From Catellatospora methionotrophica (GTDB taxonomy: Bacteria > Actinomycetota > Actinomycetes > Mycobacteriales > Micromonosporaceae), in NCBI RefSeq assembly GCF_011297335.1, contig NZ_JAAOTJ010000010.1:62001-126000 (forward strand): DNA of 64,000 nucleotides, in the 5' to 3' direction. Both the position numbers and the translations under genes were made by a program. The number at the start of each line of letters is the position of its first letter. Position 1 is the first letter of the stretch. Positions 322 to 62,682 of the stretch are shown in pieces. Under the pieces are notes generated by a model. That model was not told where the DNA came from. It saw nothing but the letters and a program-made list of their open reading frames with translations, and did not search any database.

Positions 322-1835
322 CCGCCGAGGCCGTCGCCCGCCGTCGTGGCGGGCTCGTCGGCGTGCTGGTCGCCGAGGCGATCTCGCAGGTCGGCACGAA
401 GATGACGTTCGTGGCCCTGCCGTGGCTCGTGCTCGTCGAAACCGGCAGCCCGACGATGATGGGCCTGGTCGCGGCTGCGGAGATGGTGCCGTACGTGGCG
501 GCGGGGGTGCTCGGGGCACCGTGGATCGACCGGCTCGGGGCCTGGCGGGTCACCGTCGACGCCGACCTGCTCAGCGCGGTGGCACTGATGGGGATCGTGC
601 TCGGGTATCGGGACCTCGGGTTCGGGGCGCTGCTCGTGCTCGTGGCGATCGCCGGTGGGCTCCGAGGGCTCAGTGACCGGGCGCGGGCGGTGCTGCTGCG
701 GCCGATGATCGAGCTGGCGGGAGCGGAGACGGCACGGGTCACCGGGTTCTATGACGGGATCGGGCGGTTGACCACGCTGATCGGTGCGCCGGTCGGTGGG
801 CTGCTCATCGCGTGGACTGATCCGTTGACGGTGATGGGGGTGGACGCTGCCACGTTCGCGGCGTCCGGGCTGATCGTCGCTGCGCTGGTGCGGATGCCGG
901 AGCCCGCAGCGGTGGCGGAGCCTGCCGGGGCTCGGGAGTCCTACCTGGAGTCGCTGCGGGGTGGGTTCACGTACTTGAAGTACGACCGGCTGATCCTCGG
1001 GGTGCTGGTCATGCTGTTCGTCAGCAACCTGGCGACGCAGGCGCACCAGGTGGTGTTCGTGCCGCTGTGGGTCAGCGAGCGGCTGGGGACGCCGGCAGGG
1101 CTGGGGGTGGTGTTCGGGTCGTTCGCGCTGGGGGCGGTGCTCGGGAACATCGCGTTCACGGCCATGGCGAAGAGGCTGCCCCGGTATTGGACGTTGACCG
1201 CTGGATACCTGGTGGGCGGGGCGCCTCGGATGCTGGTGCTGGCGTTCACGGATTCGCTGCCCGTGGTGGTGACGGTGTTGTTCCTGTCGGGGGTCGGGCT
1301 GGCGGCGGTGAACCCGATCATCGGGGCGGTGCTGTATCAGCGGGTGCCGGTGGCGTATCAGGCGCGGGTGTTCGGGCTGGCGGCGGGGAGCCTGGTCGGC
1401 GGGTGGCTCGCTAAAGACGTAGGTCTTACTGCGGGTCTGATGGCGTGCGGGCTCATTTTGCTCGCTGCGACGCTTGGCCCGGTGTTCGGGTATCGCACTT
1501 GGCGGCAACTCGACGACACCGAGTCGGTGTTCGAGGTGCCGGTGCTGGGGCCTTCGTTAGCGGTGACGCTTGCCTACACAGGAGGCGCGTGGTGGATAAA
1601 GGCTAACCAGGGTCGGGTAAGACTGGGAGCGCCACGACAACTCGATGCTGGTATAGCGCTGGGCGCTCTGGAGGCGTTGGCACCTGCCGAGGCGTACCTC
1701 GTTGCAGAGCGCATCGTTGCAGGCCAACGCGAGGAAGCCCGCACTGAGGCTGATCGGCTGCGAACCCTGATCATGGATGCAACGGTTAGGCTCAATCAGG
1801 TGGAAGAGGCCATAGCAGGGTTGCAAGATCAATAA
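318..1835 (+). CDS. MFS transporter (DHA3/EntS-like exporter) with atypical C-terminal end
   Basis: A 505-residue membrane transporter of the major facilitator superfamily. The GTG start at 318 overlaps the previous stop by four bases (GTGA). The N-terminal half is typical: EAISQVGTKMTFVALPWLVL and PYVAAGVLGAPWIDRLG, followed by alternating hydrophobic helices and a long central loop around residue 200. The end is odd. After VPVAYQARVFGLAAG the protein jumps to SLVGGWLAKDVGLTAGLMA; relatives I recall have about 20 more residues there, so part of helix 11 seems lost. A roughly 100-residue tail without helices follows, rich in Ala, Glu, Arg and Gln and ending in a probable coiled coil. Base use becomes less GC-rich from about 1420. 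I infer recombination or a deletion at the edge of the accessory island; activity of the product is uncertain. Confidence 0.75.
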   Translation: MTAEAVARRRGGLVGVLVAEAISQVGTKMTFVALPWLVLVETGSPTMMGLVAAAEMVPYVAAGVLGAPWIDRLGAWRVTVDADLLSAVALMGIVLGYRDLGFGALLVLVAIAGGLRGLSDRARAVLLRPMIELAGAETARVTGFYDGIGRLTTLIGAPVGGLLIAWTDPLTVMGVDAATFAASGLIVAALVRMPEPAAVAEPAGARESYLESLRGGFTYLKYDRLILGVLVMLFVSNLATQAHQVVFVPLWVSERLGTPAGLGVVFGSFALGAVLGNIAFTAMAKRLPRYWTLTAGYLVGGAPRMLVLAFTDSLPVVVTVLFLSGVGLAAVNPIIGAVLYQRVPVAYQARVFGLAAGSLVGGWLAKDVGLTAGLMACGLILLAATLGPVFGYRTWRQLDDTESVFEVPVLGPSLAVTLAYTGGAWWIKANQGRVRLGAPRQLDAGIALGALEALAPAEAYLVAERIVAGQREEARTEADRLRTLIMDATVRLNQVEEAIAGLQDQ

Positions 1836-1990
1836 ACAATCGTGCGCGTAGCAACGGCTGTCCCCAGGGATGTGAACACGTCCGGCTACCTGGATGGAAT
1901 CGTGAAGCCCGGATTGGGCGCGCGGCTCAGGATGGCGCTAACTGTTGTCGGCTTTTGAGTCTCGTTCGCGCGCAGCCGAGCTCAGCTCCA

Positions 1991-2004
1991 GACATTTAAA
2001 TGTC
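1991..2004. promoter_or_regulatory. Perfect 14-bp palindrome
   Basis: GACATTTAAATGTC, perfectly self-complementary and AT-rich in a GC-rich replicon. It could be an operator for a dimeric regulator or part of an RNA structure. No regulator in the window is clearly linked to it. Confidence 0.35.
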
Positions 2005-2350
2005 ACCAGCTTGCCATAGGAAGCATTCCACCAACTAGGCCGTCTGTTGTAGATCGACTGCGTCTGCTGCTCTCCAGTACTCCGTACTCAACTTGCAGTT
2101 TCGTCAGCGAGCATTGCATGCGGGGCCGGCCAGCGCTCGCCGATCAGAGGCCGGAACTGTTCGGCAAATGTCGACACTTCGTAGACCAGGCTAATCATGG
2201 GCACCTAGAACGCGAACGAGGCGGCCGTGGCGATGTGGGGTAGGCCAAAAGAACAATTCGGCTCATTCGTTCAGCCAGATTGCGGCCCGGCATCCAGGTT
2301 GCCGCTTCCTAAGGGCCTCCGAACTCAGTAGATTGTGGAGCTCTGCCCAT

Positions 2351-2357
2351 TGGAGGA
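2351..2357 (+). promoter_or_regulatory. Ribosome binding site that sets the RT start
   Basis: TGGAGGA, part of a GGAGGAGA run that ends a few bases before the GTG at 2363. It is the strongest Shine-Dalgarno match in the region and decides against the in-frame upstream TTG. Confidence 0.7.
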
Positions 2358-2362
2358 GAATC

Positions 2363-3982
2363 GTGCCATCAGTCGGTCGAGCAGCCATCGAGCGAGCAGT
2401 ATTAAACGTCGCGAACCGAGGCGACACTGACGTGTTCCCGTATCCAATCGAGAATCACGTGTTTCACGATCGCGCCAATGAGATATCAGATTTAATTGAG
2501 AAGATGTCGGTCGACTTTAACGGATCCCTCGACCGGATTCCTCTTGCAAGTTATTCATGCCTTGCTCCGATTGGCTATACTGGCTATAGATGGGCAACGC
2601 CGATTGACCCTTTGTGGAACGCCTATCTCTTATCTCTCGTACTATCACTAGCGCCCAAGATCGAGGCGGCTAGAATAGATCCGGCAGAACAAACTGTATT
2701 TTCCTACCGATATGACGACACCTCGTTGTCGGGGGTCTTCGAGATCGACGGTTGGGGTAAGTTTCAAGAGCGCTGCTACGAGCTAGCCAGTCAGCACGCC
2801 TACATCGTCAGCGTCGATATAGCTGATTTCTATTCGCGCATCTACCATCATCGGCTTGACAATGCCCTGCGTGAGGTGGACGACTCTGGTCTCACTCGTA
2901 CCAAGCAGATCATCGCCATTTTAACAAAATTGAGCAACGGCACGTCCTACGGACTCCCGGTAGGCGGAAATGCGGCTCGTTTGCTTTCCGAACTCGTGCT
3001 GAATCGCGTTGACAGGCTACTGATGGCCGACCCGCACCTTGGAGAGTTCTGTCGGTACGCAGATGATTACCGGTTCTTTGTCAAGGATCTTCAGTCAGCA
3101 CACCGGTGCATCGGAATGCTTTCAGAGAAATTAATGAGGAACGAAGGGTTTTCGCTGCAAAAGGCCAAGACCCGGATCATGACCTCCGCCGAGTATCAAC
3201 TCGTCACAGAGCCTAATCAAATTGCGGAACCAGGTGGACCCGGCAAGTTTCTGGGCCTCAGACTCCACTTCGATCCCTACTCTACCACCGCAGTCGAAGA
3301 CTACGAGAGAATGATGGCTCAGGTCGCAGAGTTCGACATTCTCGGCCTGCTGCGCGAGGAGATCACCAAGGGAAGAGTACATGTTGCGCTTACTAAGAAG
3401 CTCGTTGGTGCGCTGCGTTATTTAGACGAATCGAGTCGGATTCAGGCAGTTGTTTCTCTGCTCGACAACATCGACACCCTGGCGCCAGTCGTACCTCAAG
3501 TGATGCTCTCAATCCGTCAATGTCTCGACGATACTCGTGATATAGGTGCTATAAACTCGATCCACCGTGCGATTAGGCAGCTGATTACTGATGGCCATTA
3601 TATAGCTAAGAACGACCTTAACCTGTCCTACATGGTGCGGGTTCTGGCCTCCCATCACTCCGTAGAAAACGAGCGCCTGCTAATTCGCTTGTACGATGAG
3701 CCGCATGGTTACGGGACTCAGTCAGCCCCCAACATTCAACGCGATGTCATGCTAACTCTTGCGAAATGGGATGTTAGGTACTGGCTTAGCGAAAGGAAGC
3801 ATTCCTTTGGCGTAGATCACGCTTGGGTTAGAAGGGCGTTCCGGCTTAGTAGCTATCGCCTAGGCGACGAGGGAAGGCATTGGCGGGGAGCAAACAGGGT
3901 GCCTGTCGATACTCTGGATGCTATAGCCCAGGACTGGGCGGCGGCACGCTCGGCAAGTCCCGCCTGGGTGATTCCGGTATGA
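2363..3982 (+). CDS. Reverse transcriptase of the unknown-group / defence type (YADD)
   Basis: A 539-residue RNA-directed DNA polymerase. The GTG start at 2363 is chosen because a strong GGAGGAG lies five bases upstream; an in-frame TTG at 2333 lacks this. An N-terminal block with GDTDVFPYPIENH (about residue 20) comes before the fingers. Motif A is VDIADFY (D152 and D155), motif B is GLPVGGNAAR (197-206), motif C is YADD (232-235, both aspartates present), and QKAKTRIM follows as motif D. The last 220 or so residues are helical and repeat-like, resembling the alpha-solenoid tail of UG/Abi reverse transcriptases, and end with SYRLGDEGRHWRG. There is no maturase or endonuclease domain, which argues against a group II intron, and no retron msr/msd was seen. 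GC is near 50 percent in places (31 of 60 in 2401-2460) and TTA leucine codons occur, signs of transfer. It overlaps the nuclease-like gene by ATGA. The UG class is not assigned. Confidence 0.88.
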   Translation: MPSVGRAAIERAVLNVANRGDTDVFPYPIENHVFHDRANEISDLIEKMSVDFNGSLDRIPLASYSCLAPIGYTGYRWATPIDPLWNAYLLSLVLSLAPKIEAARIDPAEQTVFSYRYDDTSLSGVFEIDGWGKFQERCYELASQHAYIVSVDIADFYSRIYHHRLDNALREVDDSGLTRTKQIIAILTKLSNGTSYGLPVGGNAARLLSELVLNRVDRLLMADPHLGEFCRYADDYRFFVKDLQSAHRCIGMLSEKLMRNEGFSLQKAKTRIMTSAEYQLVTEPNQIAEPGGPGKFLGLRLHFDPYSTTAVEDYERMMAQVAEFDILGLLREEITKGRVHVALTKKLVGALRYLDESSRIQAVVSLLDNIDTLAPVVPQVMLSIRQCLDDTRDIGAINSIHRAIRQLITDGHYIAKNDLNLSYMVRVLASHHSVENERLLIRLYDEPHGYGTQSAPNIQRDVMLTLAKWDVRYWLSERKHSFGVDHAWVRRAFRLSSYRLGDEGRHWRGANRVPVDTLDAIAQDWAAARSASPAWVIPV

Positions 3983-4650
3983 TTTCGGTTCGCCGCTTTT
4001 CACTCCAAGCATCATTATGGCGGCAGCACGCGCCGATGATGGAACAGTTGGTACGTTGGATCAACCTCCATGAAACGTCCTATGGGCGCCAAGTGATGGT
4101 TCAAAATCACCCGAACAGGAACGCCCTCATAGCTGAAACGGCGTTCCGGCGAGCTGCTGTAGAAGCTCCGCTCTTCGAAGAGAACTTAGACGCTGAAGTC
4201 AAGGCCAGCGAAATGCTAGCACTACTACCAAGAGGTCAATTCGGCGATCTTCCATTAACGCGCTCCGAGCGCACTGAGACAACTCTAGTGCAGCAGAACA
4301 TACAACTATATTGTGGTAATTTGGCCGATCCGAAGTTTTTCTACTCTGTGCCTGGCTGCGGGATTGTTGACGCGGCCTTTGGTGACATTAAGGATGAAGG
4401 TCACCTAGCTGAGATAAAAGCAGTAACACGGCCCTTTAGGTCAACAGACATTCGCCAGCTTTTAACATATTCGGCAATGCTTTATGCATCCGGCAGATCG
4501 GTAGACAGATTGAGTCTTTATAACCCTCGCCGGGCTCGACTATTCACAACGACATTGAATGAAGTGTCGTTTAGCGTCGGAGGACGCTCTGGCAGCGAAC
4601 TGATGCAGGACCTCATCGACAGCATGGTCGGCATGCAGGTATCCGTATGA
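3979..4650 (+). CDS. PD-(D/E)XK nuclease-like protein coupled to the reverse transcriptase
   Basis: A 223-residue protein whose ATG at 3979 overlaps the RT stop (ATGA), so the two are almost certainly translated together. The C-terminal half carries the layout of a PD-(D/E)XK nuclease: D131 in GIVDAAFGDI, E145-I-K147 in HLAEIKAV, then Q160 and Y164 in RQLLTYSAML, the QxxxY motif seen in RecB-like nucleases. The N-terminal half (RRFSLQASLWRQHAP and on) is unrecognised and may be a recognition or partner-binding domain. There is no transmembrane segment. Composition matches the RT and differs from the rest of the window, so both arrived together. Family knowledge: such folds cut DNA or RNA in restriction and defence systems. 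The role with an RT is inference; it could process the cDNA, act as the effector, or be a catalytically retired structural partner. Confidence 0.7.
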   Translation: MISVRRFSLQASLWRQHAPMMEQLVRWINLHETSYGRQVMVQNHPNRNALIAETAFRRAAVEAPLFEENLDAEVKASEMLALLPRGQFGDLPLTRSERTETTLVQQNIQLYCGNLADPKFFYSVPGCGIVDAAFGDIKDEGHLAEIKAVTRPFRSTDIRQLLTYSAMLYASGRSVDRLSLYNPRRARLFTTTLNEVSFSVGGRSGSELMQDLIDSMVGMQVSV

Positions 4651-4951
4651 ACTGAACGCCGTAACCGTGCGAGCGAGCACATCGCAAGGGGAATGAGCGA
4701 CGTCACGACTCATGGTCGTGCTTCTGCGGTTTACCGCCGTCGGTGTTTGAGTGCGACCGTCACGTGCTGCACCGCGTCGCCCGACCGCCCACTGGGGTGG
4801 CCAACAGCTAGCGCGCATAATTGGGTATTGCTACTTCGATTGAGTACGTGAGATTAGCGCTGGCGGTCGACGAGCACTCTTTCGATCGGCGGCGCGGCTA
4901 CGGACCGTCGGGTGACAGACCCACTGGGCCACGTGGCCTTCGCAGTTCCAC
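4651..4951. other. Intergenic stretch after the RT-nuclease pair
   Basis: About 300 bases with no coding frame I can support and no clear terminator. Composition climbs back toward the GC-rich average. No attachment-site repeat, tRNA or integrase was found that would mark the end of the transferred segment. Confidence 0.4.
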
Positions 4952-5176
4952 TCAGGTCAGATGGGTTGGTGCATCGAGACCAGAGGCTCCTTTTAGCTCT
5001 CGCACTGCCCGTAACACTCGTTGCTTGTGCTCGTAGCACAAGGCGGACGTTGGCTGGCCGCAGTTGCCACACCATGTGATCGGTACACCGGCCGGTTCAC
5101 GGGTTCGGCGCGGACGAGTCAGTACCCCGATCAGGAGCCCGGCGATGAGCCCGGCGACGGCGCTCAGGACGAACAT
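4952..5176 (-). CDS. Small single-pass membrane protein with CxxC motif
   Basis: A 74-residue product starting MFVLSAVAGLIAGLLIGVL, one N-terminal membrane helix followed by a basic stop-transfer stretch RPRRTR. The soluble part has WCGNCGQPTSALCYEH, a Cys-x2-Cys and a later Cys-x2-His arrangement that could hold a metal. The ATG at 5176 has an AAGAAGG ribosome site about six bases upstream; a longer in-frame reading to 5242 lacks support. Function unknown. It faces away from the GntR gene and lies next to another small gene on the same strand, so both may be accessory genes of a mobile or plasmid-derived segment. Confidence 0.55.
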   Translation of the reverse strand: MFVLSAVAGLIAGLLIGVLTRPRRTREPAGVPITWCGNCGQPTSALCYEHKQRVLRAVRELKGASGLDAPTHLT

Positions 5177-5248
5177 GTGTTGCCTTCTTTCCGAGGTGGG
5201 TGCCGGGACGGTCGGGGTGCGAGCCATGGGCCGTCCCGGCACCGGCTC

Positions 5249-5503
5249 CTACAGTGGTCCGCCGTCCCTGCTCAAGCAGGGCTGGTCAAGCGGTGACGGC
5301 ACCTGTGTGCCGAGATGGCCGACAACGCGCGCGGCGGCCTGCTCGGCGTGTTCGAGAAGCGTGCGCAGCGGTGAGTACGCCACCTTGTTAGCGAGTTTGC
5401 GAGCGGTGTCCGCCTGGTCGAGTCCAGCGACAAGCACGCGGGCCTGTTCGAGGGCGCGAAGAACGGTCTGCATTTCGTTCGCAAGGTCCACTGGACTGCT
5501 CAT
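5249..5503 (-). CDS. Small helical hypothetical protein
   Basis: 84 residues, no membrane segment, largely helical with heptad-like spacing (LANEMQTVLRALEQARVLVAGL and LLEHAEQAA), so probably a coiled-coil dimer. The ATG at 5503 has GAGGAG six bases upstream. It is divergent from the GntR regulator and shares its control region with it, a common arrangement for genes repressed by that regulator. I do not recognise the family. Confidence 0.6.
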   Translation of the reverse strand: MSSPVDLANEMQTVLRALEQARVLVAGLDQADTARKLANKVAYSPLRTLLEHAEQAAARVVGHLGTQVPSPLDQPCLSRDGGPL

Positions 5504-5549
5504 GGCGACTCCTCGTCGATCTATGATCGACCGGCTGTGACATCAGATT

Positions 5550-5602
5550 GGTAATTACCTTTGCATTGTCCTCTTTGGTTGGTCAAGGGTTGCCGCTAGA
5601 TT
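5550..5602 (+). promoter_or_regulatory. Control region between divergent small gene and GntR gene
   Basis: A 10-bp palindrome GGTAATTACC (5550-5559) is a candidate operator for the UTRA-type GntR protein encoded just downstream. A plausible promoter for that gene is TTGGTT (5575-5580) and TAGATT (5597-5602) with a 16-base spacer. Read by eye only. Confidence 0.35.
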
Positions 5603-5636
5603 GGTTAGGACGTTTTCGGATGAGGGGTGGGTCGAC

Positions 5637-6422
5637 GTGCCGGGCCAGCCGAAGTACCAGCGAATCGCAGAACAACTGCGCCGCCAGATCGACGACGGTG
5701 GGCTGCCACCTGGTGCGAAGCTGCCCACGGAGGAAGAGCTCCAAGCTGCATACGGGGTGTCTCGTCCGACGGTGAGAGACGCGACCGACGTGCTACAAGC
5801 GGCTGGGCTGGTTGAACGCCGCCCAGGGCGTGGTGGTGGCGTGTTCGTCCGTGAGCAGGTGATGATCGAGGCCTACGCGTGGCGCGATGACCAGCCGATG
5901 AGCACCACCTCAGAGGCTGATCTCTTCTTCCGCACGGTGCGCGAACAGGGGCATGAGCCCAGCCAGGAGTTTTCCACTCGGGTCGAGCCGATGCCGGCTG
6001 ATTACGCTGCTCTGCTGCACGTCGACGTGGGTAGTACGGCTGCCGTGCGCCGATGTCTGCGTCTCGTCGACGGTGTGCCGCATTCGATCCAGGACTCGTG
6101 GTATCCACAGTGGTTGTGTGAGAAGGTTCCGCAGCTGTTCAGCCCGCACAACATCGCCCAGGGGACGACCAAACTGCTGAGGGAGCGTGGCTACCACCAG
6201 GTTGCCGCGCTGACCACGACCAGCGCCCGTATGCCCACCCCGGTCGAGGCCGTGCTGTTGCAGATCCCCGTCGTGGCGGGTACACCGGTCTTGCACAACG
6301 TGCTGACCGGCTACACCGCTGATCGGCCGCTGCGCATCTCAGCGGCTGTGTTCGCAGCGGACAAGGTCCGGCTGATCTCGGCTCACGGCGACATCGAAAC
6401 CATCGCCAGGCTCCGTCGATGA
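5637..6422 (+). CDS. GntR family regulator with UTRA ligand domain (HutC subfamily)
   Basis: A 261-residue transcription factor. Residues 1-70 form the winged helix of the GntR family (KYQRIAEQLRRQIDDG, LPPGAKLPTEEELQAAYGVS, SRPTVRDATDVLQAAGLVER, then the wing GRGGGVFV). The rest is a UTRA small-molecule-binding domain. The GTG at 5637 is preferred, with GAGGGG about nine bases upstream; an in-frame GTG at 5631 and TTG at 5601 are alternatives. Its stop overlaps the GNAT start (ATGA). UTRA-type GntR regulators paired with small genes also occur on integrative elements of actinomycetes (KorSA-like), but no plasmid replication or transfer gene is visible, so the ligand and target are unknown. 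Confidence 0.85.
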   Translation: MPGQPKYQRIAEQLRRQIDDGGLPPGAKLPTEEELQAAYGVSRPTVRDATDVLQAAGLVERRPGRGGGVFVREQVMIEAYAWRDDQPMSTTSEADLFFRTVREQGHEPSQEFSTRVEPMPADYAALLHVDVGSTAAVRRCLRLVDGVPHSIQDSWYPQWLCEKVPQLFSPHNIAQGTTKLLRERGYHQVAALTTTSARMPTPVEAVLLQIPVVAGTPVLHNVLTGYTADRPLRISAAVFAADKVRLISAHGDIETIARLRR

Positions 6423-6979
6423 TCATTCGGCGTGCGCGGTTGCGAGACATCGACACCATCCTCGACTGGCGCACTCAGCGCGCGGCCTGGCTGGCTGAAC
6501 GCGGCCAGGCTCAGTGGCAGACGCCATGGCCTCGCTCGGCGGTGGCTGCGGCGATCCAAGCGGGCCAGACATGGCTGGTCTGGGACGATGACGTACCGGC
6601 GGGTTCGATCACGCTGGCTGCGTTCACCGACCTCGACGGGCTGTGGAAGTCCGACCGAACACCGGACGCGGACGCCATCTGGCATCCGATCGACGATCCA
6701 GTCAACGCTCTCTACGCCTCGAAGATGATGGTTCCTCTCGGATACTCCGGTGCAGGACTGGGTTCCGAACTGCTGGACTGGGCCGCAGGAAGCGCCTATG
6801 ACGCTGGGGTCCTCTGGTTGCGTCTTGACGCCTGGACTAGCAACACCGACCTACACGCGTACTACACAGGGCTCGGCTTCGAACACGTCCGCACCGTTAC
6901 CAGCCGTGTGTCTGGTGCCTGCTTCCAGCGCCCAGCTCAGCCTTATCGCGGAACACGTCTCAAAGAAGATTGGTCATGA
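6419..6979 (+). CDS. GNAT family N-acetyltransferase
   Basis: 186 residues with the GNAT fold. The opening MIIRRARLRDIDTILDWR is the usual first strand and helix, and MMVPLGYSGAGLGSELLDWA carries the acetyl-CoA-binding motif A in a Q/RxxGxG/A-like form. LHAYYTGLGFEHVRT is the C-terminal motif B. The substrate cannot be predicted. It is coupled by ATGA to the GntR gene before it and to a tiny ORF after it, so the three form one transcript probably under GntR control. Confidence 0.85.
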   Translation: MIIRRARLRDIDTILDWRTQRAAWLAERGQAQWQTPWPRSAVAAAIQAGQTWLVWDDDVPAGSITLAAFTDLDGLWKSDRTPDADAIWHPIDDPVNALYASKMMVPLGYSGAGLGSELLDWAAGSAYDAGVLWLRLDAWTSNTDLHAYYTGLGFEHVRTVTSRVSGACFQRPAQPYRGTRLKEDWS

Positions 6980-7089
6980 CGCCTCTACCGGTGGACCTCA
7001 AGCTGTTCGGCTGGCACCTCGACGCGCGGGTGCTCGACTTCCTCATGCGCACCCACGCCGTGCTGGACGTCGACGAGTACGGCGGCTGA
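6976..7089 (+). CDS. Short ORF of 37 residues coupled to the GNAT gene
   Basis: The ATG at 6976 overlaps the GNAT stop by ATGA, the same junction type as the gene before. The product begins MTPLPVDLKLFGWHLDARV and ends in an acidic stretch. It has no recognised domain. It may be a real small protein or the remaining front of a longer gene cut at the island edge, because the neighbouring core gene begins 60 bases later on the other strand. Confidence 0.4.
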   Translation: MTPLPVDLKLFGWHLDARVLDFLMRTHAVLDVDEYGG

Positions 7090-7150
7090 CCCACCGGGCA
7101 GGGCTGCGGTGCCCACCAGCGCGTTCCTTGGCGGGCACCGCAACGAACTG

Positions 7151-7894
7151 CTAGATCGCGAACCCGCCGTCGGCGTCGATCGTCGCACCAGTGACGTAAC
7201 GGCTGTCGTCGCGGGCGAGGAACGCGACCGCTGCCGCGATGTCGGCCGGTGCGCCGTAGCGCCCGACAGCCGTGAAGCCCTTGATCACTTCGGCGTACGG
7301 GCCGTCGGCCGGGTTCGCGTCCGTGTCGGTCGGACCGGGGTGGACCAGGTTCACCGTGATCCCACGCGGCCCCAGTTCACGACCGAGCCCCTTGGTCAGC
7401 CCGATCAGAGCCGTCTTGCTCATCGCATACAGGCTGTGGCCGGGGAACGTCGTCCGCTGTGCGACGTTGCTGCCGATGTTGATGATCCGGCCGCCGTTGA
7501 CCATGTGCCCGGCGGCCGCTCTGGCGGCGACGAACGGCGCGCGGACGTTGACGGCGACGGTCAGATCGAAGTCGGCCACGCCGAGGTCTTCGACCGGCCC
7601 GGTGAGGTAGATCCCCGCGTTGTTGACGAGGATGTCGAGCCGCCCGAACTCGGCCGCGACCTGGTCGACCGCCGCGGTGAGCGCGGCCGTGTCGGCACTG
7701 TCGGCCCGCACGGCCAGCGCGCGGCGTCCAGCGGCCTTGATCTGCTCGACCACCTGTTCCGCCCGGTCGGCGTTCTGCTGGTACGTCAGTGCCACGTCGG
7801 CACCGTCCTCGGCCAGGCGCAACGCGACCGCCGCCCCGATGCCCCTGCTGCCACCCGTAACCAATGCCACTTTTCCGTCAAGAACTCTGCTCAT
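7151..7894 (-). CDS. SDR family oxidoreductase (3-oxoacyl-ACP reductase-like)
   Basis: 247 residues, the size of a classical short-chain dehydrogenase. It has the NAD(P)-binding TGGSRGIG near the N-terminus, NNAG (structural motif), IGSN with the catalytic serine, and YAMSK with catalytic Tyr and Lys, followed by the typical GRELGPRGITVNLVHPGPTDTD. The ATG at 7894 begins MSRVLDGKVALVTGG; a longer frame upstream has no family similarity. It probably reduces a carbonyl with NADPH in the cytoplasm; the substrate is unknown. It lies divergent from the DUF4331 gene. Confidence 0.9.
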   Translation of the reverse strand: MSRVLDGKVALVTGGSRGIGAAVALRLAEDGADVALTYQQNADRAEQVVEQIKAAGRRALAVRADSADTAALTAAVDQVAAEFGRLDILVNNAGIYLTGPVEDLGVADFDLTVAVNVRAPFVAARAAAGHMVNGGRIINIGSNVAQRTTFPGHSLYAMSKTALIGLTKGLGRELGPRGITVNLVHPGPTDTDANPADGPYAEVIKGFTAVGRYGAPADIAAAVAFLARDDSRYVTGATIDADGGFAI

Positions 7895-8143
7895 GAGCCA
7901 AGCCTGCTGGACCCCGCCTTGTGGGTCTGGCGGGAACCAGACGGCGCATTCTCGGCAGGAACCGCAGGCCACGATGGGCCACGCGGCTTCCCGATCAAGA
8001 GCCCGAAATCCGGCACTGATCACCACCCGTCACACGAATCGACTCGCGCGATGCGCCGACCCGTCGCGTTCCCCGGATGTCGAACGCTGCTCCACCTGCG
8101 CTGATAGCTTTCGAAGGATGCCTAGGTAGGAAGGGTGCGAACC

Positions 8144-9169
8144 ATGTCCCACCACCTCGATACCCCACTTGCCCGGCAGAACGGGCGCCTCTACATCGAC
8201 GATCTCTACGTCTTCCAGGGCGACGCGTCGACCGTCTTCATCCTCGACGTCAACTCGACCATCACCGGCCCCGACGTACAGGCGGGGCTGCACCCCGAGG
8301 CCCGGTACGAGTTCAAGGTCCACGTCGACGACAGCCCCTTCGAGCAGTTGACCCTGCGTATCGCCGCCGACGCCGAGCCCGACGCCGACGGCAGGCAGAC
8401 CATCACGGTGTCCAGCCTCACCGGCGACGAGGCTCGCGACGACGGCGCGACGGGCACCGTGCTGGCGACCGGGCGCACCGGCGAGGAGGTCACCGGAGGG
8501 GGCGTACGTGTCTGGACCGGCCGGGTCGCCGACCCGTTCTACATCGACCTCGGCCAGCTCGCGACGATCAACGCCGCCGTCGCCCAGGGCAGCAGGATCG
8601 ACGGCGCGGCCTGGGATCCGCAGCGCGCGACGAACTCGTTCGCGAACACGACCGTGCAGGCGATCGTCGTCGAGGTCTCCCACGAGCATCCGGTGCTGCA
8701 TCCCGGTGCGCGGGTGGCCGTGTGGGGCGCGACGAAGCTGGCGACCGACGCCGGGGGATGGCGGCAGATCAACCGGTTCGGCCTGCCGATGATGTGGCCG
8801 ATCTTCTGGCCGACCGACGCGGACTTCTCCAACCCGGCCAACGACCGTCACCCGTCGGAGGACCGCGAGGGCGCGGGCAAGTACATCGCCGACCAGATCG
8901 CCGCCGTCGTCGCCGCCAACGGCAACTCAGCCGATCCGCAGGGCTACGGCTGGACCGTCATGCATCGGATCTTTCCCGAGGTGATGCCGTACGTCGTCGG
9001 CACTCCGGCCTCGTTCGGGTTCGCGGGCATCAACGGCCGCTCACTCGCCGACAACGCCCCCGAGGTCATGTTCTCCCTGGTCCTGGGCAAAGCCACCCCG
9101 GACGGCCTGAGCCCGTCCACCAACGACCGCCTTCGCACCACCGCCTTCCCGTACGTCGTCAAGGCGTAG
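8144..9169 (+). CDS. DUF4331 family protein
   Basis: 341 residues matching the DUF4331 family, with the opening MSHHLDTPLARQNGRLYIDDLYVFQG, the repeated acidic strands of a beta-rich fold, and a late block with MMWPIFWPTDADFSNPANDR. ATG 8144 is preceded by GGAAGG nine bases upstream. No signal peptide is seen, although many relatives elsewhere are secreted. The family has no firmly known activity. Divergent from the SDR gene. It is followed by a long inverted repeat that probably ends its transcript. Confidence 0.8.
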   Translation: MSHHLDTPLARQNGRLYIDDLYVFQGDASTVFILDVNSTITGPDVQAGLHPEARYEFKVHVDDSPFEQLTLRIAADAEPDADGRQTITVSSLTGDEARDDGATGTVLATGRTGEEVTGGGVRVWTGRVADPFYIDLGQLATINAAVAQGSRIDGAAWDPQRATNSFANTTVQAIVVEVSHEHPVLHPGARVAVWGATKLATDAGGWRQINRFGLPMMWPIFWPTDADFSNPANDRHPSEDREGAGKYIADQIAAVVAANGNSADPQGYGWTVMHRIFPEVMPYVVGTPASFGFAGINGRSLADNAPEVMFSLVLGKATPDGLSPSTNDRLRTTAFPYVVKA

Positions 9170-9178
9170 CGGGGCCGC

Positions 9179-9243
9179 ATGATCGCTGTATCGGGTCATT
9201 TCGTCAGGTGAAACCGCAGATCTTGACCCGAAATAGCGATCAT
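9179..9243. terminator. Long imperfect inverted repeat after the DUF4331 gene
   Basis: Arms 9179-9198 and 9224-9243 pair at 18 of 20 positions around a 25-base loop. It starts ten bases after the DUF4331 stop, consistent with a transcription terminator or a REP-like intergenic element. Confidence 0.6.
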
Positions 9244-9370
9244 CGCCCAACGCGCCGAGAGGGCCAAACCCCCGGCGGCGCCCCGCCTACACTGCACCGG
9301 TGCCCCGCGACCTGCGTACCGTTCCGAGTCACTGTCCTGTCTGCGACCCGCCGTCGGCACGCGTACGCCG

Positions 9371-10255
9371 ATGAGTGAGGGCTGTGTCCGGGTGGACCGG
9401 TCGGCGGCGTTCGCGGTCAACGGGGTGGGAAGCCGGGAGGGCACGCTGCCGTTTCCGCTGTCGTTCAGTGTCTCGTCGGCCGGGGGCGTGTTCGACGTCG
9501 TCGCGGCCGCGGCGAGCGCGTCGGAGCTGGTGGACCTGCTGGCGGCGTACGCCCGGGGGCAGGCGGTGGTGTTGAACGTGGGCACGAACAGCTGGCTGAA
9601 CGACGACTACGGGCAACTGCCGCTGGGCCGGATCGCGGGGGAGCAGGGTGTCGCCGCGCAGGTGCACGACATCCGCTGGGCGGCAACCCGGTACTGGTCC
9701 GATGACCTGTTGGTGATGCCGTGGGCGGAGCTGCCGCGTTTCCTGGACGGGTGGTATCCGTACGACATCGAGATCCTGGATGTGGCCGGAACGCTGACGG
9801 CCGCCGAGGTGGCCGAGCTGGCGCTGGCGGTCAACACCCGTGCGCCGGATGCGCCGCTGCTGCCGACCGTCGCCGGTGCGAATCTGTGGTTCGGCGGGCA
9901 CGACGACTGCTATCTGAACCTGGAGACGGCGTCGGCCGATCTCGTGTCGCTGCTGCTGGCCCGGCTGCTGGCGTTGCGGGCCGGGACGGCGCTGCTGATC
10001 GACGGGGACCTGGCGGCGGAGGACGTCGTGGTGCCGCAGCCGCCGGTGGCGCTGGCCGCCGCACTGCTGGCCGTCAGCAGTGCCTGGGTCGGCAGGGTCG
10101 CGCAGGTCCGTGCGGGTGCGGTCGAGCTGGCGCTCGCGCCGGTGGACGTCCGCTGGCGGACTGGCAATCAGCTGCCCGGCGACATGCCGTACACGCTGAC
10201 GCTGGACCTGCCCTCGGGTCGCTGGAGCCAGCACGTCACCGGGGCGATCCGATGA
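9371..10255 (+). CDS. Hypothetical protein, 294 residues
   Basis: Acidic, alanine- and leucine-rich soluble protein with no signal peptide or membrane helix. Strand-turn patterns such as VVLNVGTNSWLNDDYGQLPLGR and the final YTLTLDLPSGRWSQHVTGAIR look like an ordered globular domain. Codon use fits a real actinobacterial gene, with strong G or C at third positions. ATG 9371 has no clear ribosome site. I do not recognise the family, and neighbours give no functional hint. Confidence 0.6.
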   Translation: MSEGCVRVDRSAAFAVNGVGSREGTLPFPLSFSVSSAGGVFDVVAAAASASELVDLLAAYARGQAVVLNVGTNSWLNDDYGQLPLGRIAGEQGVAAQVHDIRWAATRYWSDDLLVMPWAELPRFLDGWYPYDIEILDVAGTLTAAEVAELALAVNTRAPDAPLLPTVAGANLWFGGHDDCYLNLETASADLVSLLLARLLALRAGTALLIDGDLAAEDVVVPQPPVALAAALLAVSSAWVGRVAQVRAGAVELALAPVDVRWRTGNQLPGDMPYTLTLDLPSGRWSQHVTGAIR

Positions 10256-10375
10256 TGGTATGACCACAGTGGAATGTCTGCCTGAGCTGGATGTATCCGC
10301 GCCGGGAGAGTGAACTGTCCCGATGGGACAGCGGGCCTCTTCTGTACGAGCGCCGTGACCCATAGCATTCTGGGC

Positions 10376-11542
10376 ATGGATGCGTTGAAGCTGACTTCTG
10401 TCGGCGGCAAGCGACTCGCCGCCGCACTGGCCACCGCGGTCGCGCTCGCCACGGGTGCCGCCACCATGTCGGCTTCGGCGGCGGCCCCGCTGACGGTCGC
10501 CGCAGCACTGTCCGCCCAGGACGGTCGCAGCGCCGCCGTCTCCGGTTACGTCGTCGGGCAGCCGACCGCGACGAACACCGTCATCAAGTCGGGCTTCACC
10601 GGCGACACCGCGATCGCGATCGCCGACTCCTCGGCCGAGTCGAGCACGTCGCGCATGCTGTACGTCCAGGTCACCGCCGCCTACCGCGGCGCGTTCGGGC
10701 TGCAGAGCAATCCGGGCCTGATGGGTCGGCTGGTCACCGTCACGGGCACGCTGACGGCGTACTTCTCGCACGGCGGGCTCAAGGACCCGACCGCGATGAG
10801 CCTCGGCGGCGGCTCGTCGCCGTCACCGGTGCCGACCGGCTCGACCGGGCCGTACGACCCCACGTACTACGCGAGCGCGCTCGGCAAGACCGGGCCCGCG
10901 CTGCGGACCGCGCTGCACAACATCATCAAGACGCAGACGAAGATCACGTACACGCAGGTGTGGGAGGGGCTGAAGGCCACCGACCAGGATCCCAACAACG
11001 CCGGCAACGTGATCCTGATCTACAGCGGGCGCTCGCAGAGCAAGACGACCAACGGCGGCGGCGTCAACGACTGGAACCGCGAGCACGTCTGGGCGCAGTC
11101 GCACGGCGACTTCGGCACCGCGACCGGCCCCGGCACCGACCTGCACCACCTGCGCCCCGAGGACGTGACGGTCAACTCGACCCGTGGCAACAAGGACTTC
11201 GACCTGGGCGGCTCGGCGGTGGGCGAGGCACCGGGCAACTACACCGACACCGACTCGTGGGAGCCGCGCAACGCGGTCAAGGGCGACATCGCCCGGATGC
11301 TGATGTACATGGCCATCCGGTACGAGGGCGAGGACGGCTGGCCGAACCTGGAGCTGAACAACTCCACCAGCAACGGGTCGGTGCCCTACATCGGCAAGCT
11401 GTCGGTGCTGCTGCAGTGGAACCAGCAGGATCCGCCGGACACCTTCGAGAAGCGCCGCAACCAGGTCATCTACAACAACTGGCAGCACAACCGCAACCCG
11501 TTCATCGACCACCCGGAGTGGGCGGCGGCGATCTGGAGCTGA
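10376..11542 (+). CDS. Secreted endonuclease I family nuclease with N-terminal OB-like domain
   Basis: 388 residues. A signal peptide covers roughly residues 1-37 and ends in SASAAAP. Residues 40-145 resemble the DUF6359/OB-like domain often found before secreted nucleases (AAVSGYVVGQPTATNTVI). A Ser/Pro/Gly linker follows, then the endonuclease I domain with NREHVWAQSHG, the beta-beta-alpha-metal active site, and DLHHLRPEDVTVNSTRGNKDF. It should be an extracellular DNA/RNA-degrading enzyme useful for phosphate or nucleotide scavenging. The ATG at 10376 is seven bases after TAGCAT, so the mRNA may be leaderless. Confidence 0.9.
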   Translation: MDALKLTSVGGKRLAAALATAVALATGAATMSASAAAPLTVAAALSAQDGRSAAVSGYVVGQPTATNTVIKSGFTGDTAIAIADSSAESSTSRMLYVQVTAAYRGAFGLQSNPGLMGRLVTVTGTLTAYFSHGGLKDPTAMSLGGGSSPSPVPTGSTGPYDPTYYASALGKTGPALRTALHNIIKTQTKITYTQVWEGLKATDQDPNNAGNVILIYSGRSQSKTTNGGGVNDWNREHVWAQSHGDFGTATGPGTDLHHLRPEDVTVNSTRGNKDFDLGGSAVGEAPGNYTDTDSWEPRNAVKGDIARMLMYMAIRYEGEDGWPNLELNNSTSNGSVPYIGKLSVLLQWNQQDPPDTFEKRRNQVIYNNWQHNRNPFIDHPEWAAAIWS

Positions 11543-11636
11543 CCCGTCCGGCGGCCGCGGTGCGTTAGCGCCGAGCCACCATCATGATCACGTCACCGGG
11601 ATCGAGTGCGGCTGCCGCCAGGCCGGGTCCTCGGCG

Positions 11637-12317
11637 TCATCGCACCAGACCTGCGATCAGGTTGATCGCGCCCGCGACGATCACCACCCCGAACAGGTAG
11701 GCCACCAACGCGTGCACCAGGACGGTCCGCCGTACCCGGCGGTCGCGCAGCGTCGTGTCCGACACCTGGTAGGTCATGCCGATGGTGAACGCCACGTACG
11801 CGAAGTCGCGGTAGTCGGGCTGGTCGGACTGGTCGGATCCGAACTGGATCGCCCCACCCTGCGTCCGGAAGTACAGGTGGGCGTAGCGCAGCGTGAACAC
11901 CGTGTTGACCACGACCCAGGACATGATGACCGTCGACCCGGCGACGGCGACGAACACCCCGCGCGACGACCCGCTGGTCAGCCCGGCGAGCCGCAGGGCG
12001 ACGAACACCCCGGTCAGGCTGGCCACGCTCGCCGCGAGCAGGAGCAGCGTGGCGGAGCCCCTGCTCTCGTCCTCGCGTACGGCGAGTTTGCGGGTGGTGC
12101 TGCTGCTCGCCTTGATGATCATCGGCCAGGTGGCGAGCAGGAACGTCAGTGCCATCACGTTCCAGCCGCCGATCGCGGCCAGCTCCCAGGTAGTGATCAT
12201 GGCCAGTCCCGCGCCGGCGAGCAGCCCGAGGCAGGCGACGACGGCCGCGCGGCGCAGCGCCGGGGCGTGCCAGCCCAGCCAGCGGTGGTAGAACGTGGGG
12301 GACGGGACGTCGGCCAT
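11637..12317 (-). CDS. DUF1345 family membrane protein
   Basis: About 226 residues with five to six membrane helices (AVVACLGLLAGAGLAMIT, NVMALTFLLATWPMI, TLLLLAASVASLTGVFVAL, VIMSWVVVNTVFTLRYAHLYF, LVHALVAYLFGVVIVAGAI). The family signature region is HLYFRTQ...GGAIQF and DYRDFAYVAFTIGMTYQVSDT. Function unknown; relatives are widespread integral membrane proteins. ATG 12317 is chosen; an in-frame GTG at 12332 would add five residues. No close functional partner. Confidence 0.85.
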   Translation of the reverse strand: MADVPSPTFYHRWLGWHAPALRRAAVVACLGLLAGAGLAMITTWELAAIGGWNVMALTFLLATWPMIIKASSSTTRKLAVREDESRGSATLLLLAASVASLTGVFVALRLAGLTSGSSRGVFVAVAGSTVIMSWVVVNTVFTLRYAHLYFRTQGGAIQFGSDQSDQPDYRDFAYVAFTIGMTYQVSDTTLRDRRVRRTVLVHALVAYLFGVVIVAGAINLIAGLVR

Positions 12318-61275: not shown

Positions 61276-62682
61276 TCAGGCCGCGATGCCGCCGGCGCTG
61301 ATCACATCGCGGTACCAGTGCGCGCTGTCCTTCAGCAGCCGCTGCTGGGTGTCGTAGTCCACGCGGACGATGCCGAAGCGCTTGCCGTAGCCGAACGCCC
61401 ATTCGAAGTTGTCCAGCAGCGACCACACGAAGTAGCCGCGCAGATCGGCTCCGGCGGTCATCGCCTCGTGCGCGGCGGCCAGGTGGGCGCGCAGGTAGGC
61501 GATGCGCTCGGTGTCGCGGACCCGGCCGTCTCCGTCGACCTTGTCGTCGTACGCGGCCCCGTTCTCGGTCACGTACATCGGCAGGTCCGGGAAGCGGCGG
61601 TGGACGGCGGTGAGCACGTCGCGCAGCCCGGTCGGGTCGACGGTCCAGCCCATCTCGGTACGCGGGCCGGGGGTCTGGTGGAAGGTGATGTCCTGGCTGG
61701 CCGGGTACACCGAGGGCTCCTCGTGCGGTGTCGTGGCGGCGCTGACCAGGTCGGGGGCGTAGTAGTTGACGCCCAGCGCGTCGATCGGCGCGGCGATCAC
61801 GGCCAGGTCGCCGTCGCGGACGAACGACCAGTCGCTCACGGACGCGGTGTCGGCCATGACGTCGGCCGGATACGCCCCGGTCATGATCGGGTCGAGGTAG
61901 ATGCGGTTGAGCAGGCCGTCGATACGCCGGGCGGCGTCGCGGTCGGCGGGGGAGTCGGTGAGCGAGCGCACCGCGCCCTGGTTGAGGGCGATGGAGATCT
62001 GCGCCGAGGGCACCGCCGCGCGCAGCGCCTGCACGGCCAGGCCGTGGCCGAGCAGCAGGTGGTGGGTGGCGAGCAGGCTGTCGGCGGGGTTCTTGCGGCC
62101 GGGGGCGTGGAAGCCCGCGCCGTAGCCGAGGAACGCCGAGCACCACGGCTCGTTGAGGGTGCACCACAGCTGGACGCGGTCGCCGAGGCGCGCGCCGACG
62201 ACGGCGGCGTAGTCGGCGAAGCGCAGCGCGGTGTCGCGGGCGGTCCAGCCGCCGCGGTCCTCCAGCTCCTGCGGCAGGTCCCAGTGGTAGAGCGTGGCCG
62301 CGGGCTTGATCCCGGCGGCCAGCAGTTCGTCGACGAGCCGGTCGTAGAACGCGATGCCGGCCGGGTTCTCCCCGGAGCGGCCGCCGGGCTGCACGCGCGG
62401 CCAGGACACCGAGAACCGGTACGCCGACAGCCCGATCTCGCGCATCAGCGCGACGTCGTCGCGGTAGCGGTGGTAGTGGTCCGCGGCGACCTCGCCGGTG
62501 TGCCCGTCGGTCACCAGTCCGGGGGTGGCGCAGAAGGTGTCCCAGATCGACGCGGTGCGGCCGTCCTCCGCCACGGCGCCTTCGATCTGGTACGCGGCGG
62601 TCGCCGCACCCCACCAGAAGTCGGGGGGAAACCGCAGCTCCTGTGTGGTGGCTGCGGCTGGTGCCTCGGTCTGGGTGGGCAT
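61276..62682 (-). CDS. GH1 beta-glucosidase, second copy
   Basis: 468 residues, GH1. [14 protein letters not shown] is the N-terminal signature; E178 in TLNEPW and E373 in VTENGAA are the catalytic pair. No signal peptide. It is a distant relative of the GH1 at 17035. Its leader has a perfect GGAGAGCGCTCTCC and an upstream TTGACA, so a LacI-type repressor for beta-glucosides probably controls it together with the divergent CBM32 gene. Confidence 0.92.

Follow-up and report, generated by a model that had tools for sequence, protein, structure and literature searches.

A DRT8-type reverse transcriptase and its predicted nuclease partner in an accessory insert of Catellatospora methionotrophica

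A 2025 paper (PMC12596737) characterises the reverse transcriptase (RT) system DRT8 by its PD-(D/E)XK domain, and two 2026 articles (PMC13213688, PMC13314766) report that DRT8 confers phage resistance by a mechanism that is not established. Here we followed up a pair of adjacent genes, for an RT and for a PD-(D/E)XK-like protein, at positions 2363-4650 of a 64,000-nucleotide (nt) stretch of Catellatospora methionotrophica DNA (the window; positions 62,001 to 126,000 of contig NZ_JAAOTJ010000010.1, in a genome, G000, of 8.39 Mb and 56 contigs). An earlier note on this DNA had taken the pair for an undescribed defence system of an arrangement that it could not name. The observation is real, and the pair is probably functional. 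The novelty did not hold: both genes have models in PADLOC-DB 2.0.0 (Drt8 and RTasPDDEXK), the arrangement appears in PMC12596737, and the pair thus belongs to an already named DRT subtype. We regard it as almost certainly a DRT8 system, made up of the RT and its predicted PD-(D/E)XK partner.

The two genes and their products

The coordinates of the two open reading frames (ORFs) and the ATGA coupling between the RT and the 223-residue protein, as given in the earlier note, were exact. The features of the locus are as follows.

2352 to 2358, forward strand: Shine-Dalgarno-like GGAGGAG, 4 nt upstream of the GTG start of the RT gene, read from the sequence
2363 to 3982, forward strand: DRT8-type RT gene, GTG start, 539 amino acids (aa)
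3272 to 3283, forward strand: codons of D304-P305-Y306-S307 in the RT, located by alignments, with coordinates derived from the RT start at 2363
3979 to 3982, forward strand: ATGA stop/start overlap coupling the RT and partner genes, read from the sequence
3979 to 4650, forward strand: gene of the RT-associated PD-(D/E)XK protein (RTasPDDEXK), 223 aa

The codon use of the pair had been described as low in guanine plus cytosine (GC), containing TTA and unlike that of the neighbours, and our counts agree. Across 2001-5000 the GC fraction dips to 0.53-0.55, while the remaining 1-kb steps of the window lie at 0.64-0.78. At third codon positions the GC fraction is 0.576 in the RT gene and 0.518 in the nuclease gene, compared with 0.830, 0.752 and 0.701 in the neighbouring major facilitator superfamily (MFS), GntR and GNAT genes. 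TTA makes up 6 of 540 codons of the RT gene and 4 of 224 of the nuclease gene, compared with 1 of 506, 0 of 274 and 0 of 187 in the same three neighbours. Promoter-like and terminator-like patterns were less numerous than the means of shuffled sequences.

The class of the RT was assigned with the defence models of PADLOC-DB 2.0.0 (2023), a step that the earlier note had proposed. The Drt8 model (PDLC03783) matched residues 6-529 over model positions 4-492 of 493, with an E-value of 4.2e-145 and 482.8 bits, ahead of all other UG classes; we take DRT8 to be class UG7 of the UG/Abi scheme. The second-best model, RT_UG21, reached 97 bits, AbiP2 66.7 bits and the CRISPR-linked RT model PDLC01607 57.4 bits, and the AbiK and AbiA models were absent among the best 25 of 85 PADLOC matches. 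Pfam gave RVT_1 and a sub-threshold ParcG. All NCBIfam matches to the RT and its partner stayed under their cut-offs (for the RT, group II 61.1 against 300 and retron St85 40.2 against 235), and a specific model for either gene was not found in Pfam or NCBIfam.

The motifs DIADFY, GLPVGGNAAR and YADD are all present in the RT, as had been read earlier, and the catalytic residues D152, D234 and D235 are invariant in all 13 aligned Drt8-type RTs. The AlphaFold2 (AF2) model of the RT has a mean predicted local distance difference test score (pLDDT) of 82.3 and a predicted template modelling score of 0.82. In this model the C-terminal domain is all-helical from about residue 310, with helices throughout 310-536, which bears out the helical tail suggested in the earlier note. 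The top Foldseek matches of the model were DRT4, AbiA, DRT6, UG15, Abi-P2 and AbiK, with DRT9 lower. In its predicted structure the RT resembles the Class 1 UG/Abi polymerases, more closely than it resembles retron RTs.

A second set of conserved residues follows the presence of the nuclease gene. The motif D304-P305-Y306-S307 is complete in 9 of 9 nuclease-paired RTs analysed and in 0 of 4 unpaired ones, and Y314-E315 is likewise invariant across the nine paired RTs. At the same site the unpaired RT of locus L007 carries N-P-Y-Q, with a tyrosine matching Y306, and the unpaired RTs of L008, L009 and L018 are without the motif; a tyrosine of L018 at column 306 depends on the alignment, being seen in one alignment and replaced by a gap in two others. 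We consider Y306 a candidate priming tyrosine or partner contact. Residues 305-307 have pLDDT values below 50 in the AF2 model.

The partner matched the RTasPDDEXK model of PADLOC (PDLC03797) from residue 1 to 221, over model positions 1-224 of 226 (E 1e-51, 173.8 bits); for both proteins, matches of this strength lie well outside chance. Of the nuclease residues proposed earlier, E145, K147 and the QxxxY motif (Q160 and Y164) held, being unchanged in all ten aligned nucleases. D131 did not: only the window and L010 have D at this site, and the other eight of the ten have A, S or N. Because D136 is D in 10 of 10, we rejected D131 as the catalytic acid and place D136 in its stead. Further invariant residues in the ten-sequence alignment are D157, R159 and N182-P183-R184. 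The AF2 core of the partner, residues 134-192, is predicted as strand-strand-helix-strand-strand, with a mean pLDDT of only 59.6. Weak PADLOC matches to PDC-S61 and Cas4-type models, of 16.5 bits or less, cover residues 127-198, the D-ExK-QxxxY stretch, and the NCBIfam Cas4 model scored 11.9 against a cut-off of 65.

Relatives of the pair and its genomic setting

A search for the same pair in other genomes had also been proposed, and it yielded 12 further fetched loci and 105 of 5,426 E. coli genomes. The fetched loci with an adjacent pair are L004-L006, L010-L017 and L022, among which L013 repeats the L012 pair exactly, L017 matches L011 at 99.9% identity, and the RT of L022 is truncated. In all 12 the nuclease gene lies directly 3' of the RT gene. 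The earlier note had allowed that homologues might show the second gene unlinked and lacking a nuclease fold; the gene was found linked, with its catalytic residues invariant, although a structure search did not confirm the fold. Four of the loci lie on plasmids of Rhizobium, Sphingobium, Paraburkholderia and Comamonas (L004, L005, L006 and L022), and L011-L017 lie on IMG/VR contigs. The closest relative is that of Nonomuraea fuscirosea (L010), with a nuclease 48% and an RT 59% identical to those of the window; the RTs of L012, L014 and L015 are 35-37% identical to the window RT. The two genes overlap by 4 nt in the window, L010, L011-L015 and L017, by 11 nt in L004, L005, L016 and L022, and by 23 nt in L006. 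The overlap of L004 assumes an upstream in-frame start, its annotated partner beginning 110 bases past the RT. The Drt8 model matched the RTs of L004-L009, L011, L016 and L018, and the RTasPDDEXK model matched the partners of L004, L005, L006, L010, L011, L012, L015 and L016. Overall, in actinobacteria and proteobacteria alike, the two genes stand side by side and mostly overlap. Flanking DNA matched between pairs within the L012-L015 and L011/L017 sets, and otherwise only over 18 nt, between L005 and L011/L017.

With the L012 pair as a near-search query, all 105 matching E. coli genomes covered at least 80% of the query, and an integrase was named under the match in 29 of the 30 E. coli matches listed. 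When L015 was the query of a distant search, the count was again 105 of 5,426 genomes, each with coverage of 80% or more, and a near match of the L011 pair was not found in E. coli. As single queries, the window proteins found no relatives in viral contigs or the phage collection; the window RT found nine plasmid records, and the window nuclease found no plasmid relatives. The RT alignment found nine loci in viral contigs, where the nuclease alignment found no relatives. The L012 RT was not found in phages, nor the L012 nuclease in plasmids. Among sampled Actinomycetota, only the source genome itself was recovered by the nuclease (1 of 296 at E <= 1e-3), by the RT (1 of 396 at E <= 1e-40) and by the Drt8 model (1 of 396 at E <= 1e-50). 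A weak RTasPDDEXK match (L021, G095:C1:2993800-2994099; E 3.8e-7) was seen in another genus of the same family, inside an open frame of 824 aa.

Four more distant RTs that match Drt8, those of L007, L008, L009 and L018, are without a nuclease: a profile search of their ORFs of at least 60 aa found no nuclease partner at E up to 1. In a tree of 13 RTs, which excluded L022 (truncated RT), L013, L014 and L017 (near-copies) and L019 (too distant), a branch with 98/99 support set the nine paired RTs apart from the four unpaired ones. The four unpaired RTs sit on long branches, and the program cautions that such branches meet, so the split between paired and unpaired RTs is not proof of ancestry. 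At the excluded L019 (3090-6591), ORFs of 460 and 708 aa overlap each other and have weak RT-profile matches (E 7e-18 and 2e-16); this may be a two-RT system like DRT3.

The earlier note had placed the pair in an accessory island, and the comparison of genomes supports this. In 10 other genomes of the genus, the partner family model had no match at E <= 1e-5. Genome G658 keeps synteny with the MFS gene (1-1762) and with parts of 9279-12000, and there 1.9 kb lie between the two, compared with 7.5 kb in the window. In G659, 13.9 kb or more separate the left flank from the matches at 9283-9352 and 10239-10710, and in G654 only the left flank matched within the 15 kb fetched. The interval 1763-9278 is a site of variable insertion, of 7.5 kb in G000, 1.9 kb in G658 and about 13.9 kb in G659, and the pair lies in this accessory insert. 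Beside the pair, 5022-6980 (GntR-UTRA and GNAT genes) matches G655, G656 (84%) and G659 (80%); in G659 this stretch is on a different contig from the left flank and so may be a separate mobile block. Beyond the insert, 10310-11542 holds a DUF6359 and endonuclease I gene whose DNA is conserved in G658, and it is thus probably outside the system.

At the two E. coli places that were read, L042 and L043, the annotated order is integrase, RT and partner, then Psu and Ogr/Delta genes; both contexts are P4-type satellites. Pfam likewise identified integrase, Ogr/Delta and AlpA neighbours in L012, Psu and Ogr/Delta neighbours in L014, and for L015 an integrase. PMC9122126 describes the psu-int place of P4-like satellites as a reservoir of antiviral systems. 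Defence models also matched neighbours of other Drt8-type RTs, namely Lamassu LmuA/B/C (L004), Gabija GajB (L007), HerA and a retron type VII-A1 RT (L008) and PD-T4-10_B (L018); no such matches were found among the scanned neighbours of L009, L016 and L022. On the Aminobacter plasmid of L008 (1660-7668), the unpaired RT has a HerA-like DUF87 ATPase gene on one side and a retron type VII-A1 RT-DUF3800 gene on the other, so that defence RTs of two kinds are neighbours there. At L018 (4187-7427), the PD-T4-10_B-like gene lies about 80 nt upstream of the unpaired RT, and a CI-repressor gene downstream suggests a prophage. Overall, the accessory insert in the window carries an intact UG/Abi-type RT coupled to a PD-(D/E)XK-like protein, and together they are probably defensive.

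A proposed mechanism and its rivals

The RT is most likely a Class 1 DNA-making enzyme with a coupled predicted DNase. The Class 1 UG RTs with helical repeats studied to date are template-independent and some are protein-primed, according to PMC13174585. Because the studied Class 1 RTs work in this way, the RT of the window most likely needs no RNA template either and makes DNA primed by the protein; with the structural model in view, we give untemplated, protein-primed synthesis a fairly good chance. In the mechanism that we propose, phage infection would cause the RT to make DNA without a noncoding RNA (ncRNA) template. Synthesis would be primed by a tyrosine of the RT itself, with Y306 of D-P-Y-S as the first candidate. 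The nuclease would sit in the same complex, harmless by itself, until the product of the RT or the activated RT licensed it to cut phage or host DNA, and the infection would be halted. Our preference for the nuclease as a licensed effector rather than a brake is tentative, falling short of an even call, and the whole proposal (DRT8, an untemplated protein-primed RT and a licensed nuclease effector) is put forward with the same caution.

Two sets of observations bear on this proposal. The first concerns ncRNA. Rfam gave nothing at E up to 1 on window positions 1000-6000, so that a known flanking RNA family was rejected there, and the fold z-scores of the flanks showed nothing unusual (+1.03 for 1836-2362 and -0.55 for 4651-4951). 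In L011 the adjacent ORFs lie 125 and 47 nt away, and in L016 they lie 136 and 62 nt away and are without identification; in L012 the RT start overlaps the integrase stop. This suggests that some DRT8 loci leave little flanking space for an ncRNA, an argument drawn from the tightest loci. The second concerns broken pairs. In L022 the RT is truncated, neither catalytic motif pattern was found in it, and the nuclease is whole. In L042 an IS3 element lies inside the RT, and the nuclease frame is intact and identical to the L012 nuclease. These two copies hint that the nuclease alone is tolerated, with the reservation that the insertion may silence it.

Several points weigh against the proposal. 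The window has 527 nt ahead of the RT, about 300 nt follow the nuclease in L012, 316 nt separate integrase and RT in L043, and an RNA within the coding region could still serve the RT. Foldseek on the weak nuclease model gave no significant match (best E 0.19), and Pfam had no confident nuclease match in the partner, PDDEXK_3 appearing in 1 of 10 members at E 0.088. The computed results do not separate a licensed effector from a brake. Moreover, DRT4 is reported as a single-gene system, so a nuclease effector is not strictly needed.

Among the alternatives, the brake fares best. On this account the partner is a PD-(D/E)XK exonuclease that would destroy the DNA made by the RT as long as the cell is healthy. 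Once a phage protein shielded DNA ends or inhibited nucleases, the product would accumulate and the cell would be arrested. The QxxxY motif is common to RecB/Cas4/lambda-exonuclease-type enzymes, and its presence favours a brake together with the weak Cas4 matches in the partner. The first seven non-significant Foldseek rows include LHK-Exo and a Cas4-family protein, which lean the same way, as well as Dna2 and the unrelated FliK. Both broken pairs have a damaged RT and an intact nuclease, as a brake would allow, and the four nuclease-less RTs stand outside the paired group in the tree. Effector nucleases, by contrast, are a common arrangement among defence systems. Furthermore, the broken pairs are only two and the insertion may also silence the nuclease, the exonuclease activity of the partner is a prediction, and the four Drt8-type RTs without a nuclease indicate that some branches of the family manage without it. 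A precedent for the brake comes from DRT4, whose DNA is degraded by host exonucleases until phage ORF55 shields it, according to PMC13314766. On balance we consider the brake a serious but rather doubtful option. A fuller version of it, which we hold to be unlikely, would have a Class 1 RT make untemplated, protein-linked DNA primed by the D-P-Y-S tyrosine, with the coupled exonuclease destroying this DNA until a phage factor blocks the exonuclease. If true, it would be a DRT4-type logic with the host exonuclease swapped for a system-encoded one.

The remaining explanations are weaker. In analogy with retrons, the RT and its DNA could act as an antitoxin that keeps a toxic nuclease inactive until phage interference releases it, an idea with which the translational overlap agrees. 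The broken pairs with an intact nuclease argue against such a role, since L022 and L042 should be toxic unless the nuclease is unexpressed, and the structural model places the RT closer to Class 1 UG/Abi enzymes than to those of retrons; we judge this idea improbable. A non-defence origin, in which a retron, group II intron, diversity-generating or CRISPR-associated RT lies by chance ahead of a Cas4-like gene, could appeal to the generic RT matches to group II and retron models and to the weak Cas4 match. The Drt8 score of 482.8 bits, compared with 97 for the next model and 57.4 for PDLC01607, dominates, the group II and retron scores are far under their cut-offs, and Rfam is without a match in 1000-6000; we thus rejected a retron, group II or CRISPR RT identity, although no search was aimed at a CRISPR array, and give this origin very little credence. 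A categorically new RT-nuclease system, to which the want of a specific Pfam or NCBIfam model might point, has next to no chance, being refuted by the two PADLOC models of 2023 and by the arrangement named in PMC12596737.

Significance and comparison with known systems

The find is an ordinary one, adding an actinobacterial copy to those of a catalogued system. What importance it has is modest, and it has it because the two 2026 articles list the mechanism of DRT8 as unestablished. The comparison offers several handles: the corrected nuclease residues; the D-P-Y-S motif, complete only in nuclease-paired RTs, with its candidate priming tyrosine; loci that are tight for a flanking RNA; and two natural copies with a damaged RT and a surviving nuclease. 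With these in hand, the choice between effector and brake becomes testable with few inactivating mutants.

Among known systems, PDC-S61 and Cas4-type nucleases share with the partner a weak match over the D-ExK-QxxxY stretch, and they differ in score, with 16.5 bits or less compared with 173.8 for RTasPDDEXK. DRT9 is also a UG RT with a significant fold match, at a lower similarity (template modelling (TM) score 0.37); its RT works with an ncRNA, whereas some DRT8 loci leave little flanking room. AbiK, AbiA and Abi-P2 are fold matches to the RT model and are described as untemplated, protein-primed polymerases in PMC12483538 and PMC12632851, but they have separate models, AbiP2 reaching 66.7 bits on the RT compared with 482.8 for Drt8. 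DRT4/UG15 and DRT6 are among the solved structures whose folds come nearest to the RT model (9vdv, E 4.4e-11; 9wy8, TM score 0.58/0.62) and share the plan of an RT plus a helical domain. They differ in being described as single-gene systems without a coupled nuclease, and in their 13-14% identity to the RT in the fold alignments. DRT8 itself is the closest. The window pair forms an actinobacterial branch of it, and a difference in kind was not found: both window proteins match nearly over their full length, the gene order and overlap are like those of the relatives, and the catalytic residues are retained.

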